Positions 6,829 through 12,949 of a DNA stretch of 64,000 nucleotides are shown here, piece by piece. The stretch's first letter is position 1. Each line of letters starts with the position of its first letter. The stretch is taken from NCBI GenBank assembly GCA_030123625.1, contig CP126121.1, forward strand, positions 1,342,179 through 1,406,178, in the 5' to 3' direction. A model generated the notes under the pieces. The model did not search any database. It was not told where the DNA came from and saw nothing but the letters and a program-made list of their open reading frames with translations. Position numbers and translations under genes: made by a program. Source of the DNA: Nitrospira sp. (GTDB taxonomy: Bacteria > Nitrospirota > Nitrospiria > Nitrospirales > Nitrospiraceae).

Positions 6829-6857
6829 TTGACAGGGGCATCTTTCAATTGTAACCA
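6829..6857 (+). promoter_or_regulatory. Putative promoter of the imuB-dnaE2 cassette
   Basis: TTGACA lies at 6829-6834. Seventeen nt downstream is TAACCA (6852-6857), a weak -10 that falls inside the palindrome at 6851-6865. A perfect -35 with a weak -10 covered by an inverted repeat would suit a repressed promoter. This is an inference. Confidence 0.4.
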
Positions 6858-6865
6858 TTGGTTAC
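6851..6865. promoter_or_regulatory. Perfect spaced palindrome, candidate repressor operator
   Basis: The sequence is GTAACC-ATT-GGTTAC, a perfect 6-bp inverted repeat with a 3-bp centre, 12 nt upstream of the imuB-like ATG. It covers the putative -10 region. ImuB-DnaE2 cassettes are usually under SOS control, so a LexA-type or other repressor site is plausible, but the motif is not one of the LexA boxes I know. Confidence 0.45.
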
Positions 6866-6877
6866 TTTTAAAGTGAA

Positions 6878-8053
6878 ATGGATCGCCATATTGTCTGTCT
6901 GCAGATCCCCGCTTTTAGAATCGTGTTGGCCCGTGCCGCTGATAGCGCGCTGCGGAACCGACCGGTGGCGGTAGCACCATTGCATACGCCGCGCGCATTG
7001 ATCAGAGAAATTTCCACGGAAGCGTTTCACGAGGGCCTACAGCCGGGGATGCCGGTGGATCTCGCGCGGCTGATCTGCCCTAATCTGCGGATAATTTCTC
7101 CGGATTCATCACTCATGCAAGCCGCCCATCGCGAGCTGCAACACCGTATCTCATCTTTTGCATCGACTTGGGAATCAATCAGGCCCGGCTCGCTCTTCGT
7201 GGACCTCACCGGCACAACCCGCCTCTTCGGCCCTCCCATCGATACGGCGACCCGCATCAGCCGGGAATTGACCAACCAGCAGGGATGGCCGAGTACGATC
7301 GGATTGGCGAGAAACAAGCTGGTCTCGCAACTGGCGGCGACCACTCTCACGGAACCACTCCAAGTGCTGTCGATCCATTCCGGCTGTGAGCAACCGTTCC
7401 TCGCTCCATTGCCGACCATGTTGCTTCCCGGCCTTCACCGAGCCCACATCTCTCGGGTCTTACAACGGTTAGAGGATTTAAACCTCCTTACACTCGGCGC
7501 AATCGCTTCTGTGCCGTTGGCTTATCTACAGATCGCCATCGGCCCTCCGGCCGGTTTAGTGCACGACTGGGCCTTGGGGATCGACCCTTCCCCGGTACAC
7601 CCACCAACCGCACAGCCGATGATGGAAGGATCCATTTCCATCGATCCGGATGAAGTCGACGATCGGCTTTTGCTGGGACGGCTATACCAATTATTAGAGC
7701 AGCTTTGCACCACACTGCGGCAACAGCAACGGATGTGCCGGTCTGTCTCGCTGACTGTTCGTCATAGCGATCATGTCGAGCAGACCGCTTATGAGACGCT
7801 GCCTCACGGCACCTACTGGGAGGACGATCTTCAGCCTGTGCTGACCGACCTGTTTTACCGATGTTTCCGTCGACGGGTGCGCCTCACCAGGCTGGTGCTT
7901 CAGGTCAGTCGGCTGGAGCCACCCGCCCGGCAACTTTCGCTTTTCGACGGATCTGTCGTGCTTCCCCGCTCTCACCGCCTCTCGCTGGCTCTGGATCAAG
8001 TTCGCGCAAAATTCGGCGCACAAGCTCTGTCTTGGGGAAGGACATTACGATGA
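6878..8053 (+). CDS. imuB: ImuB-like, catalytically inactive Y-family polymerase homologue
   Basis: The 391-residue protein has the Y-family fold pattern: an N-terminal HIVCLQIPAFRIVLAR strand, the WESIRPGSLFVDLTGTTRLFG segment at about 98-117, and a thumb/little-finger C-terminus. The acidic residues that bind metal in active DinB are absent. The first Asp site is replaced in LQIPAF, and the Asp-Glu of the second motif is Arg-Pro at about 102-103. ImuB proteins are known to be such inactive adaptors that bring DnaE2 to the clamp. A beta-clamp motif QLSLF stands at 352-356. The stop overlaps the dnaE2 ATG (ATGA), so the two are coupled. No imuA or lexA gene is adjacent in this window. Confidence 0.85.
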   Translation: MDRHIVCLQIPAFRIVLARAADSALRNRPVAVAPLHTPRALIREISTEAFHEGLQPGMPVDLARLICPNLRIISPDSSLMQAAHRELQHRISSFASTWESIRPGSLFVDLTGTTRLFGPPIDTATRISRELTNQQGWPSTIGLARNKLVSQLAATTLTEPLQVLSIHSGCEQPFLAPLPTMLLPGLHRAHISRVLQRLEDLNLLTLGAIASVPLAYLQIAIGPPAGLVHDWALGIDPSPVHPPTAQPMMEGSISIDPDEVDDRLLLGRLYQLLEQLCTTLRQQQRMCRSVSLTVRHSDHVEQTAYETLPHGTYWEDDLQPVLTDLFYRCFRRRVRLTRLVLQVSRLEPPARQLSLFDGSVVLPRSHRLSLALDQVRAKFGAQALSWGRTLR

Positions 8054-11000
8054 CGGCTGTCCAATTCGTCCATCTCCATGTCCATTCGGATTATTCGCCG
8101 ATGCGCGGCGTGTCGTCGCTGGAAGAGCTCTGCGCCTTGGCGCGGGGGCAAGGATCGCCGGCCATGGCCTTGACCGATACGAACGGATTGTATGGAGCGA
8201 TCCGATTTGTCGAACATGCGAAGCAACTGGGGCTCCGGCCGATTCTCGGCGCTGAGCTGACCGGTGCCGATCATCGGGCGGTTTTACTGGCCAAAACACC
8301 GGACGGGTATGCCAACCTCTGCCGTGTGCTGTCGGAAAGGCATTGCAATCCCTCGTTCGATGTCCTCGCGTCAGTCTCACGCTATCGTGACGGTCTCATC
8401 GTCCTCACGGACGACGAAGCGGCGCTCATGGCCTGGGCCAAAGACGCGCGGCAAGACCTCTACGTCGAATTGACACCGGGGCCGGCTCTGCATGATGCGC
8501 TCCTCTTGAGCCGCCGAATCAATCTCCCACCTGTCGCTACCAATCGTGTGTACTTTTCTCAGGCGAATGACTTTGCGACGCATCGTCTGCTGCGTACCAT
8601 CGCCCTCAACACGACGCTCTCGCGCCTGCCGAAAGAAGCTTGTTGCTCGCCTAGCCAATGGCTGGTGCCGCCGGCGCGTATGGCATCTCAGTTTCCTCAC
8701 GTTCCGGAGGCACTCGAAAATACCATCCGCATTGCCGAAGCTTGTCACAGCGACTGGCGTTTCGGCGAGGCAATCTTTCCGGCCTTTCGCCGGCTGACCG
8801 ATGAAGAAGCGTTTTTGACACTAAAAGACAAAACCTATGCCGGCGCACTGAATCGGTATGGGGCCATCTCACAAGAAGTCCGTGACCGGATTGAAAAAGA
8901 GCTGGCGATCATCCGAGAAAAACGCTTCGCTCACTATTTCCTTGTCGTGGAGGAGATTGTTACGGCATTAAAACGAACCACCTGTGGACGCGGTTCAGTC
9001 GCAGCTTCAATCGTTTCGTACTGTCTCAACATCACCCATGTCGATCCGATCAAGCATCACCTCTTCTTCGAACGATTTCTCAATCCCGGTCGGAAAGACC
9101 CACCGGACATCGATATCGATTTTGCATGGGACGAGCGCGACGACATTTTGCGATGGGTATTCGAACAATACGGCGAGCGCCAGGCCGCCATGGTGGCGAA
9201 TCACAACAGCCTCGACTTCCGGGCGGCCATTCGTGAAGTCGCCAAGGTATACGGCATGCCGGCTGAAGAAATCAGCAGGATGTCTTCGCTCGTTGTGCGT
9301 CAAAAAGATCTTCTTGGATTTTCAACTCCACCAACCAACGAGCAATGGCTCTCTCGGCTGTCACACATCCTACGATTGAAAGCTCCCTGGCCTGAGATTC
9401 TTGCCCAGGCGCTGAAAGCACAAAACCATTTCCGCCATCTCTCCATGCACTGCGGTGGAGTCGTCATCGTACCGGATGAAATCCGGCGCTACGTGCCGGT
9501 GCAATATACGGCTAAGGGCTTACCGGTCATCCAGTGGGAAAAGGACCAGACAGAGGACGCGGGGCTCGTGAAGATCGATATCTTGGGCAACCGGTCGCTC
9601 GCCGTGATTCGAAATGCTTTGGCGGCCATCGCCAAACATACGGGCTGGACGATCGACTACGAGACCTGGGATCCGCTCAACGACACCGCCACACAAAACA
9701 CGATCCGATGCGGCGACACGATCGGCTGCTTCTACATCGAATCGCCCGCCACGCGCCTCTTGCTGAGAAAACTGTGGATCGGCATGCCGCCGCACCGCCG
9801 CGCGGAGGCCAATGTCTTCGACTATCTCGTCATGGTTTCGTCCCTGGTCAGACCTGCGACCAATCCCTTCGTCGAAGACTTCATCCGAATGGCCCAAAAA
9901 GACTCATGCGTACACTGGCATGACAAGTTAGAGGACATTTTGAAGGAAACACACGGCATCATGACCTACCAGGAAGACGTCTCGAAGGTTGCGATGGAAC
10001 TGGCGGACTTTTCCATCGATGATGCCGACCAGCTCCGAAAAGTGCTGAGCAAGAAGCACAAGGCCAAGCAGCTGCAGGATTACCGTATCCAATTTTTTAA
10101 CGGCGCCAAAAAGAACGGTGCGTCACGGGAAATAATCGACCAACTCTGGCAGATGATTATGAGTTTCGCTGGCTACAGTTTTTGCAAGCCTCATTCGGCC
10201 AGCTATGCGCAGGTGTCGTTCAAGTCCGCCTATCTCCGCACTCACTATCCGGCGGAATTCATCGCCGCGGTCATCAGCAACGAAGGGGGATTTTACTCGA
10301 CGTTCGCGTACATCTCCGAAGCGCGGCGCATGGGACTGGCCATCCTTCTGCCGGATATCAACGAGAGCGATTGGGCCTACCGCGGCGAAGGGGAGCGGCT
10401 TCGGATGGGTTTGATGCAGGTGAAGACAATCCCGGAAGCACTCGGCGTGAGGATCGTCGAAGAACGCACGCAGCATGGTCCGTATCGGTCATTTCAGGAC
10501 TTTCTTCGGCGTGTAAAACCGGAGTCGTCCCATGCCAGGGCATTGGTCCGTGCCGGCTGCTGCGACTCCATCGCCGGCGAGCTGACAAGGCCGGCCTTGA
10601 TGTGGCGGCTATATGTGGGGAGCGATGTCGCCTCAAGTCCCTTACCGATTCCGAACGACTATTCAGCCGCTCAGAAGCGAGCCCATGAGATCGAGTCGTT
10701 TGGCTTTCTGGCCAGCCGTCATCCTCTGACTCTCTACCGCAAGCAGATCGAACGGCTCCGACCGGTGCCGGCCTCCCAGATGCATTGCTACGTCGGTCGG
10801 CGCATCATCATGGTCGGTGTGCTGATCACGGAAAAGACAGCTGAGACCAAACATGGCCAAGCCATGGAATTCATCACTCTGGAAGACATGACAGCCCTTT
10901 ACGACGCCACGCTGTTTCCCGAGGTCTATCGTCGCTGCTGCCATCTGCTCTCACCCAATCGCCCGTACGTGGTCCGGGGGTCGGTAGAAGAAACATTCGG

Positions 11001-11151
11001 TGTCGTTACCCTGACTGCGTTAGATCTGCAAGTGCTGGAACCAACGATGGACGAGGGAAATCACTCGCTGCCCAACTGGCAAGAATCGCGGTATGGTAAA
11101 CTATGCGTCGCCCCGTCCGATCCGCCGCTCAATTCCTTCCCCCCCGCTTGA
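8050..11151 (+). CDS. dnaE2: Error-prone DNA polymerase III alpha subunit, DnaE2 type
   Basis: The roughly 1033-residue protein begins with a PHP domain (HLHVHSDYSPMRG, residues 8-20; TDTNGLYG). It continues with the C-family polymerase core, including GRGSVAASIVSYCLNITHVDP and the catalytic PPDIDIDF around 351-357. The helix-hairpin-helix and OB parts follow. The start is the ATG overlapping the upstream stop; a longer open frame upstream only shadows the imuB-like gene. DnaE2 works with ImuB in damage-induced mutagenesis and translesion synthesis, as known for Mycobacterium and Caulobacter. The position directly after an ImuB-like gene supports DnaE2 rather than the replicative DnaE1. The next gene overlaps its 3' end by 49 nt. 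Confidence 0.9.
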   Translation: MTAVQFVHLHVHSDYSPMRGVSSLEELCALARGQGSPAMALTDTNGLYGAIRFVEHAKQLGLRPILGAELTGADHRAVLLAKTPDGYANLCRVLSERHCNPSFDVLASVSRYRDGLIVLTDDEAALMAWAKDARQDLYVELTPGPALHDALLLSRRINLPPVATNRVYFSQANDFATHRLLRTIALNTTLSRLPKEACCSPSQWLVPPARMASQFPHVPEALENTIRIAEACHSDWRFGEAIFPAFRRLTDEEAFLTLKDKTYAGALNRYGAISQEVRDRIEKELAIIREKRFAHYFLVVEEIVTALKRTTCGRGSVAASIVSYCLNITHVDPIKHHLFFERFLNPGRKDPPDIDIDFAWDERDDILRWVFEQYGERQAAMVANHNSLDFRAAIREVAKVYGMPAEEISRMSSLVVRQKDLLGFSTPPTNEQWLSRLSHILRLKAPWPEILAQALKAQNHFRHLSMHCGGVVIVPDEIRRYVPVQYTAKGLPVIQWEKDQTEDAGLVKIDILGNRSLAVIRNALAAIAKHTGWTIDYETWDPLNDTATQNTIRCGDTIGCFYIESPATRLLLRKLWIGMPPHRRAEANVFDYLVMVSSLVRPATNPFVEDFIRMAQKDSCVHWHDKLEDILKETHGIMTYQEDVSKVAMELADFSIDDADQLRKVLSKKHKAKQLQDYRIQFFNGAKKNGASREIIDQLWQMIMSFAGYSFCKPHSASYAQVSFKSAYLRTHYPAEFIAAVISNEGGFYSTFAYISEARRMGLAILLPDINESDWAYRGEGERLRMGLMQVKTIPEALGVRIVEERTQHGPYRSFQDFLRRVKPESSHARALVRAGCCDSIAGELTRPALMWRLYVGSDVASSPLPIPNDYSAAQKRAHEIESFGFLASRHPLTLYRKQIERLRPVPASQMHCYVGRRIIMVGVLITEKTAETKHGQAMEFITLEDMTALYDATLFPEVYRRCCHLLSPNRPYVVRGSVEETFGVVTLTALDLQVLEPTMDEGNHSLPNWQESRYGKLCVAPSDPPLNSFPPA

Positions 11152-11744
11152 CAATCCCTGCGTTGCAGGAGACTGCCGCCTCTTGTACCGGATGCGATCT
11201 GTACCAACGAGCCACTCAAACAGTGTTTGGAGAAGGCTCAACCCATGCGACGATCATGTTCGTCGGCGAGCAGCCTGGCGACCAGGAGGACCGGGCCGGA
11301 CATCCTTTTGTCGGACCAGCCGGTAAAATCTTGGACAAGGCGTTGGCTGAAGCGGGAATTGAGCGGCAGAGCGTGTATGTCACGAATGCCGTGAAGCATT
11401 TCAAATGGGAACCACAAGGCAAGCGCCGTAAGCACAAGAAACCGTCGGCCTCCGAAATCGCCGCCTGTCGTCCATGGCTTGAAGCGGAAGTGCAAGCGGT
11501 CAAGCCACAAGTGATCGCATGTCTCGGCGTGACGGCAGCCCAGTCGGCTTTTAAAAAGACTATCCGTCTGAATGACCTGCGAGGGCGGCCTTGGAGCACA
11601 CCTATCGCTCCGAACGTCTTTGTGACTGTTCACCCATCGGCAATTCTTCGACATCCGGAAGCAGCACAGCGCGAAGAGGAATATCATCGCTTCGTCGAGG
11701 ATCTGAAACGAATCAAGCAATTTCTCCAGGCACAGGCGGCTTAA
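11103..11744 (+). CDS. udgX: UdgX-type uracil-DNA glycosylase
   Basis: The 213-residue protein is a family 4-like uracil-DNA glycosylase with GEQPGDQEDRAGHPFVGPAGK (residues 55-75) and the C-terminal VHPSAILR motif. Fe-S ligand candidates are Cys28 and Cys31 (CTGC), Cys122 and Cys140. A KRRKH loop at 107-111 matches the KRRIH loop that defines UdgX, in which the His attacks the abasic sugar and leaves the enzyme covalently bound to the DNA. Here the fourth loop residue is Lys instead of Ile and the His (111) is kept. The gene overlaps dnaE2 by 49 nt and its stop is coupled to the next start, so it belongs to the mutagenesis cassette. Confidence 0.88.
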   Translation: MRRPVRSAAQFLPPRLTIPALQETAASCTGCDLYQRATQTVFGEGSTHATIMFVGEQPGDQEDRAGHPFVGPAGKILDKALAEAGIERQSVYVTNAVKHFKWEPQGKRRKHKKPSASEIAACRPWLEAEVQAVKPQVIACLGVTAAQSAFKKTIRLNDLRGRPWSTPIAPNVFVTVHPSAILRHPEAAQREEEYHRFVEDLKRIKQFLQAQAA

Positions 11745-12319
11745 TGACGTCGCGCCAACCGGATCGCACTCAGACCTGCCTGCTCATCATCGACATGATC
11801 AACGAGTTCACGTTCGACGGCGCCGAGAAACTCTTCCCAGCCATCGAACAGACGGCAGCAACCATCGCGACACTCAAGCAACGCGCCAAATCAGTTGGGT
11901 TGCCAGTCTTGTATGTGAACGACAACTTCGGCAAGTGGCGTTCGGATTTCAAAACGCTCGTGGACCGGTGTTTGGAGAGCGATTGTCGAGGGAAGCGGAT
12001 TGCGGAAATCTTAAGGCCGGAGGAAAACGACTACTTCGTCCTGAAGCCCAAGCACTCAGGATTTTATGCGACGCCGTTGGAGCTGTTACTCCGCCATCTC
12101 AACATCCAAAGAGTCGTCCTGACCGGTGTCGCAGGTGACAACTGTGTGCTTTTCACTGCCGCCGATGCCTATATGCGCAACTTCGATGTGGTCGTGCCGG
12201 CAGACTGCACCGTATCCATCAATCCCGATGCCAACCGTTCCGCGCTGGAGCACATGCGTCACACCTTGAAGGCCGATACGGCTCCATCCAAAATGATCAT
12301 GGATAAATTGACCGCATAA
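11744..12319 (+). CDS. Isochorismatase-family cysteine hydrolase
   Basis: The 191-residue protein has the cysteine-hydrolase triad pattern: Asp17 in LLIIDMINEF, Lys101 in VLKPKHSGFYATPLE and the nucleophile Cys134 in GVAGDNCVLFTA. Family members hydrolyse amide bonds (nicotinamidase, biuret hydrolase and others) or isochorismate. The substrate cannot be told from sequence. The start is the ATG that overlaps the udgX stop by one base (TAATG), giving tight coupling to the DNA-repair genes. A longer open frame from 11591 is only a shadow of udgX. A role in nucleotide-base or NAD salvage after damage is speculation. Confidence 0.88.
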   Translation: MTSRQPDRTQTCLLIIDMINEFTFDGAEKLFPAIEQTAATIATLKQRAKSVGLPVLYVNDNFGKWRSDFKTLVDRCLESDCRGKRIAEILRPEENDYFVLKPKHSGFYATPLELLLRHLNIQRVVLTGVAGDNCVLFTAADAYMRNFDVVVPADCTVSINPDANRSALEHMRHTLKADTAPSKMIMDKLTA

Positions 12320-12400
12320 GAAGCTGTGCGCAAATTGGCTGAAGAACCGTGTCACGCCGCTCGTGCCTCAATGCACCGCGATGCACATAGAAAGCCCGCA

Positions 12401-12949
12401 ATGGACAATACAAGTTCCGGATCTGCGGCTTTTACACGGAATCAGAAGTTGCCGGAACGACAGGTGAGGTCCTTCCCTCGAACAGCCCCATGTTGGTGTC
12501 CATTACAAGAGGGCGGAGTCCGAACGGACGACGAGCACTTTGAGACACTGACGGCAGCCGTGTTTTGTGCGAGATTCAGGCCGGATATCGTCCGTAGCAG
12601 GTGGAGAGCTATTCGACGGTGTTTCGCCTATTTCAATCTGGCTGTGGTCGCCTCTTGGCCGGAGCATGAAATCGAACGGTTAATGCAGCAGCCGGGAATC
12701 ATTCGAAACCGCAAGAAGATTGTTGCTACGTTGCGGAACGCAGGTGAGCTGATGAGACTACGGAGGCATTACGGAAGCGTGCAGGCATACTTGAGGTGCG
12801 CTCAAGGGAGCCGCTCGGGCTTGGTGCAGGCGGTCGATCGTTGGGCGCATTATATCGGTGCTCCTTCGATTCGGTGTTATCTCGCCTGCGCCGGGCTCGA
12901 TCCGGACAACGCAAAAAGGAACGGTATCACCGTGAAAGCGGCCAAATGA
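12401..12949 (+). CDS. Divergent Tag-like (DNA-3-methyladenine glycosylase I fold) protein
   Basis: The stretch from EHFETL to the IIRNRKKIVATLRNA segment aligns without gaps to E. coli Tag (LFEMICLEGQQAGLSW through AGIIRNRGKIQAIIGNA). The catalytic Glu of the LEGQQ motif is Ala here, the base-stacking Trp of LSW is Pro, and the C-terminal zinc ligands (His-x3-Cys) are missing. The protein therefore has the HhH-GPD helix pattern but probably not classical 3-methyladenine glycosylase activity. The frame is open from a GTG at 12326. I use the ATG at 12401, but the ATG at 12371 is also possible and no strong Shine-Dalgarno decides. It follows the repair cassette on the same strand. Confidence 0.7.
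   Translation: MDNTSSGSAAFTRNQKLPERQVRSFPRTAPCWCPLQEGGVRTDDEHFETLTAAVFCARFRPDIVRSRWRAIRRCFAYFNLAVVASWPEHEIERLMQQPGIIRNRKKIVATLRNAGELMRLRRHYGSVQAYLRCAQGSRSGLVQAVDRWAHYIGAPSIRCYLACAGLDPDNAKRNGITVKAAK

Follow-up and report, generated by a model that had tools for sequence, protein, structure and literature searches.

We analyzed a 64,000-nucleotide stretch of DNA (hereafter, the window) from a Nitrospira genome assembled as a single contig of 4.69 Mb (CP126121.1, positions 1,342,179 to 1,406,178), focusing on an operon that joins a uracil-DNA glycosylase (UDG) of the UdgX family to an error-prone polymerase pair. Three genes on the forward strand make up the core of the operon: an imuB-like gene encoding an inactive Y-family polymerase (iPolY; 6878..8053), dnaE2, encoding a DnaE2B-like error-prone polymerase III alpha subunit (8050..11151), and udgX, encoding a 213-residue protein (11103..11744). 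As an earlier interpretation made from the letters of the window (the sequence-only reading) had stated, these genes overlap. Re-reading of the window confirmed the coordinates, the ATGA shared at the imuB-like/dnaE2 junction and the 49 nucleotides common to dnaE2 and udgX. A TTGACA sequence on the same strand (6829..6834) probably serves the operon promoter as its -35 box, TTGAC(A) being found ahead of the adjoining palindrome in nearly all orthologous promoters. This 15 base-pair palindrome, GTAACCATTGGTTAC (6851..6865, forward strand), occupies the -10 position, 12 nucleotides upstream from the imuB-like start, and its conservation across species marks it as a candidate operator.

The udgX product scores 277.9 bits against the NCBIfam model TIGR03914 (curated cut-off 189.95) and its closest matches in the PDB are the structures of Mycobacterium smegmatis UdgX, with 50% identity over the aligned region. 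Residue mapping pairs E56, Q57, D60, D63 and F69 with E52, Q53, D56, D59 and F65 of the mycobacterial protein; N95, K98, H177 and R183 with N91, K94, H178 and R184; and K107, R108, R109 and H111 with K105, R106, R107 and H109. The set includes the residues tested in PMC10359453 and PMC10776899, plus the remainder of the loop, and all catalytic residues tested in M. smegmatis UdgX are conserved. Motif A (GEQPGDQED, 11265..11291, holding E56, Q57, D60 and D63) contains the GEQPG signature, with Gln replacing Ala/Gly, as G55-E56-Q57-P58-G59; D60, D63 and R109 are the equivalents of the D56-D59-R107 triad, and motif B reads HPSAILR (11631..11651). The R-loop (KRRxH), which bears the nucleophilic His position, is present as K107-R-R-K-H111 (11421..11435); the sequence-only reading was thus correct in finding KRRKH, with His111, in place of the known KRRIH. 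Among 161 relatives the loop His is found in 151, and the position occupied here by Lys instead of Ile is variable (I in 80, L in 61, K in 12). Because the catalytic residues are kept, the loop His is nearly universal and the Ile-to-Lys position is one that varies, His111 (the putative cross-linking residue) is expected to form a covalent bond with abasic DNA. Matches of UdgX in phages were set aside as distant UDG relatives (identity under 41%).

The imuB-like product (391 amino acids) has the Pfam domains IMS and IMS_C, and alignment to DinB reveals that the catalytic carboxylates of the Y family are replaced. It carries a clamp-type motif, QLSLF, and a C-terminal segment, LALDQVRAKFGAQALSWGR, that resembles the RecA N-terminus (RecA-NT-like motif, LALDQVRAKFG). 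The protein lacks an ImuB-C domain, having no W(F)..G(I/V)YD tail of the kind found at loci L129 and L213. No ImuA was found in the genome: the ImuA model NF033429, a weak one whose cut-off was exceeded in none of the control genomes, matched only open reading frames of RecA size and RadA size, both below cut-off. Hence, the “ImuB-DnaE2 pair” of the sequence-only reading stands as regards an inactive Y-family protein and a dnaE2 gene, but its ImuB label does not carry over to ImuA and ImuB-C. Since both are lacking, the pair resembles, by composition, the iPolY-DnaE2B type rather than the canonical ImuA-ImuB-DnaE2. The window DnaE2, recognized through Pfam and NCBIfam matches, falls below the NCBIfam cut-offs of both DnaE1 equivalogs and error-prone subfamily; it is 25-31% identical to the DnaE2 of ImuA-ImuB-type loci and 60% identical to the second DnaE2 copy of the genome. 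A second cassette consisting of an XRE-S24 repressor, an inactive Y-family protein and DnaE2 lies at genome positions 3777500-3789500 (loci L083 and L014). It lacks UdgX, a tyrosine integrase of phage type lies next to it, and its polymerase proteins share 45% and 60% identity with those of the window operon. Many Nitrospira carry homologous cassettes, so this one may be mobile.

With at most two mismatches, GTAACCATTGGTTAC is present in 16 of 16 orthologous imuB1 promoters. The same motif also precedes the gene for an XRE-S24 protein (L013:1836-2378) in all 30 orthologues considered (sets of 22 and 8), where it follows TTGAC(A), a few nucleotides from the start codon (the -35 box of one orthologue is N-masked). 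Only 0.6% of random 79-nucleotide windows carry the motif. A palindrome scan of the window alone, allowing three mismatches, was unremarkable; the palindrome draws its support from conservation across species. The XRE-S24 protein combines an HTH_3 domain with Peptidase_S24, exceeds the lexA equivalog cut-off by virtue of its peptidase part, and shows an AAG cleavage site and Ser/Lys residues in a LexA-like context. It is found in most of the 59 Nitrospira genomes surveyed, generally at 69-96% identity. The window genome lacks PF01726, the DNA-binding domain of canonical LexA. In Nitrospira the XRE-S24 protein seems to take the place of canonical LexA as SOS repressor. Its own gene has a self-operator, GTNACCAWTGGNTAC. 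The sharing of an operator between the operon and the gene for an S24-type repressor strongly implies that the operon is under DNA-damage control.

Survey of the 59 Nitrospira genomes identified UdgX above the TIGR03914 cut-off in six and a homologue of the ImuB-like protein in 32. The imuB-like/dnaE2/udgX set is contiguous in G000, G052, G016, G084 and G044 (in the latter it is split across two contigs), and the same order is seen in two genomes of the sister genus (G197 and G233). Genome G001 has a decayed version of it, and in G027 the UdgX 3′ of dnaE2 is cut down to its first 40 residues. In G012, a displaced udgX near transposase genes (L051:8013-8703) was rejected as a separate location: it is a relic, interrupted by a TAA and still joined to the tail of dnaE2. 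The pattern across the two genera indicates that the gene order is older than their split and that UdgX was lost repeatedly. Intact udgX copies have dN/dS values of about 0.05-0.29, denoting purifying selection; this, together with the order common to the sister genus, argues against a chance placement of the gene.

The pairing is not confined to these genera. In a genome from another family of the same class (G227), udgX-lexA-imuA-imuB-dnaE2 lie on one strand and specify a canonical LexA and an ImuA-like protein. Samples of 347 Acidobacteriota and 380 Chloroflexota genomes yielded further layouts. Among the former, dnaE2-imuB-imuA is divergent from udgX with lexA adjoining (G359), udgX is divergent from dnaE2 (G675), and three related genomes, forming one clade, have recA beside udgX or at most 3.6 kb away; in two Acidobacteriota besides this sample (loci L130 and L157), udgX is divergent from imuA. 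In the Chloroflexota, udgX is followed by imuA-imuB-dnaE2 in G783, and recA lies within about 4 kb of udgX in two genomes. At L140 and L148 the mutasome is 4-5 kb from udgX, L148 showing only imuA before the fragment ends. Standalone udgX near recA was observed at L218, L221, L224, L282 and L301 (Acidobacteriota and Chloroflexota); weak “ImuA” matches at L218, L221 and L224 were discarded, the genes being recA. Overall, 8 of 62 standalone udgX places in these two phyla are near mutasome genes, lexA or recA, against 0.5-1 expected from a rough per-place chance of 0.8-1.6% (P 4e-8 to 7e-6, not corrected for kinship); genomes chosen for their context were left out of the count. The mutasome label needs seven changes on the UdgX tree (161 rows), and none of 24 control loci of family-4 UDG (1.5 kb flanks) has mutasome-type neighbors. 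The other main context of UdgX is a radical-SAM (rSAM) gene plus a DUF4130-UdgX fusion (TIGR03916, TIGR03915 and TIGR03914), and in Bradyrhizobium these genes adjoin dnaE2-imuB. Recurrent co-location of UdgX with the mutasome, whose absence the sequence-only reading would have taken as refutation, is therefore real: it occurs in several layouts and three phyla, and extends to recA. As the two share an operon and their pairing recurs in other phyla, UdgX and the error-prone polymerase probably cooperate under DNA-damage stress.

Control elements point in the same direction in the Acidobacteriota, where a direct repeat, TTCGC-N6-TTCGC, lies 41-61 nucleotides upstream from the radical-SAM/UdgX operon at 10 of 13 loci, and with one mismatch at two others; it occurs in 0.8% of random 250-nucleotide windows. 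At L130, L157 and L231 the repeat is likewise found between udgX and the divergent imuA or dnaE2, and a copy with one mismatch lies ahead of canonical lexA in L159. The repeat is likely a LexA operator; since it precedes both, the two UdgX contexts of this phylum would be under one LexA-type operator. Before the radical-SAM gene of L165, L206, L235, L238, L239, L241-L244 and L247, the repeat overlaps the -10 region.

Two additional genes follow udgX on the forward strand of the window and appear to be the last of the operon: an isochorismatase-like hydrolase gene (11744..12319; PF00857, 133 bits), whose start lies within the udgX stop (TAATG), and, 6 nucleotides further on, a gene of the Tag-like 3-methyladenine glycosylase family (12326..12949; start uncertain; PF03352, 60 bits, partial). 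The former is retained 3′ of udgX in G044, G052 and G001, the latter in G044.

On the reading that we favor, and to which we would give an even chance, UdgX captures uracil or abasic sites covalently, beside translesion synthesis, as part of the SOS response. The self-cleaving XRE-S24 repressor would occupy the palindrome at 6851-6865 until damage produces RecA filaments that trigger its cleavage, causing the operon to fire. The inactive Y-family protein would then recruit DnaE2 to the clamp and to gaps coated with RecA, where translesion synthesis takes place. UdgX, translated from the shared mRNA, would excise uracil produced when single-stranded DNA is deaminated or dUTP is misincorporated, and its His111 would bond to the abasic sugar left behind. 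Such a cap would shield sites that might otherwise lead to strand breakage or be cut inside the gap; later, the adduct would be cleared and the site handed over to DnaE2 for bypass, or repaired. Abasic-site protection under stress was no more than a proposal of the discoverers of UdgX (PMC10359453).

Several observations weigh against so close a partnership. Most Nitrospira with this polymerase pair have no UdgX, showing that the pair functions without it and that UdgX is optional to the pair. Conversely, some 450 additional bases interrupt dnaE2 in G016 (L050:4672-8201) but leave the udgX that follows it intact; UdgX may thus act independently of the polymerase, or outlive it. On the UdgX tree, 103 of 161 rows have neither SOS nor rSAM context, and most UdgX genes elsewhere have no mutasome neighbor. 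Finally, in genome-wide scans, made by pattern search only, GTAACCATTGGTTAC has its sole perfect copy at 6851-6865, and with two mismatches allowed the operator scored 6 hits versus 14 for the reversed control. With no excess over this control, only the repressor gene and the window operon are supported as targets.

Part of this evidence would suit a simpler history in which udgX, functionally unconnected to its neighbors, was inserted once behind dnaE2 in the ancestor of the Nitrospiraceae, then carried along and in many cases lost: a single origin accounts for the Nitrospiraceae cases, and loss of udgX is indeed frequent. Set against it are the differing layouts beside mutasome genes, lexA or recA in unrelated lineages, the excess of such neighborhoods among standalone udgX places and the purifying selection on the gene, and we deem an incidental association quite unlikely. 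A functional link could also take the form of co-regulated clean-up, SOS-induced UdgX just removing uracil or misinserted nucleotides after error-prone synthesis and its covalent step being irrelevant to DnaE2. This was proposed for the COG1573-COG4277 operons of SOS uracil-DNA glycosylases in Bacteroidetes (PMC8565304), and the presence of a second glycosylase-family gene in the operon and of further UDG-superfamily genes in the genome agrees with it. However, the M. smegmatis enzyme shows no turnover (PMC10359453), which would be a poor design for clean-up, and the genome is already supplied with a family-4 UDG, the type that adjoins mutasome genes at none of the 24 loci checked. We consider this explanation doubtful. 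Location in an error-prone polymerase operon, and the naming of UdgX in C-to-G base editing studies, would fit a pro-mutagenic device: from uracil, UdgX would create an abasic site or blocking adduct passable only by the DnaE2 complex, and deaminated cytosines would become transversions under stress. Yet HMCES, the human SRAP-type shield, is reported to inhibit mutagenic translesion synthesis (PMC9436759); if UdgX behaves like HMCES it would restrain DnaE2 rather than guide it. A pro-mutagenic role thus strikes us as improbable. In a broader and more tentative form, which we rate below an even chance, the reading of covalent capture beside translesion synthesis would make UdgX a general factor of the SOS response that covalently caps abasic sites left by uracil. 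Many bacteria would have attached it, by repeated independent rearrangement, to genes for mutagenic polymerases, LexA or RecA, and during translesion synthesis it would work as a second, unrelated counterpart of the SRAP shield.

The recurrent mutasome, lexA and recA neighborhoods, with their shared operators, provide a concrete setting for the physiological role of UdgX. They tie to mutagenic polymerases a second covalent abasic-site binder besides SRAP, and Nitrospira gains a candidate SOS repressor and operator. In the open-licence PMC literature we found no description of the XRE-S24 protein of Nitrospira or of its GTNACCAWTGGNTAC operator, and no article combining UdgX with LexA; among the matches listed for articles naming two of UdgX, DnaE2 and ImuB, UdgX went unmentioned. 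The sequence-only reading had regarded the link between UdgX and mutagenesis as unstated. This holds in part. Apparently new are the operator of Nitrospira, the placement of a standalone UdgX within a mutasome operon and the several layouts in which it recurs. Already reported were SOS control of the COG1573-COG4277 uracil-DNA glycosylase operon, for Bacteroidetes, Verrucomicrobia and Alphaproteobacteria (PMC8565304), and the occurrence of mutagenic polymerases in a SplB-DUF4130-UDG context (PMC3765255).

The operon shares with the ImuA-ImuB-DnaE2 mutasome and the DnaE2B-iPolY-RecA system (PMC12926913) DnaE2, a damage-type promoter and an inactive Y-family protein that bears a clamp-type and a RecA-NT-like motif; it differs from the former in having no ImuA or ImuB-C, and it adds the udgX, isochorismatase-like and Tag-like genes. 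Its putative repressor recalls the non-canonical LexA of Bacteroidetes (PMC8565304), an SOS repressor that likewise joins an S24 peptidase to a non-LexA helix-turn-helix. The COG1573-COG4277 operon is similar in placing a UDG under SOS-type control. COG4277 may correspond to rSAM_link_UDG (TIGR03916), which accompanies the DUF4130-UdgX fusion (TIGR03915/TIGR03914). The window operon differs by its standalone UdgX inside a polymerase operon, with neither radical-SAM partner nor DUF4130. M. smegmatis UdgX (TIGR03914; PDB 6AIL, 6IO9 and 8IIE) belongs to the same family as the window protein, which matches it in motif A (GEQPG), motif B (HPSxxxR), the R-loop His and the equivalents of D56-D59-R107, N91 and K94. 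The mycobacterial loop reads KRRIH instead of KRRKH and, unlike the window gene, udgX at the two mycobacterial loci examined (L180 and L190) has no mutasome gene within 8 kb. SRAP genes, too, lie in mutasome operons (PMC3765255, PMC9436759). The SRAP proteins YedK and HMCES cap abasic sites covalently, as predicted here for UdgX. They do so with a fold unrelated to that of UdgX and through a Cys-based bond, and do not excise uracil.

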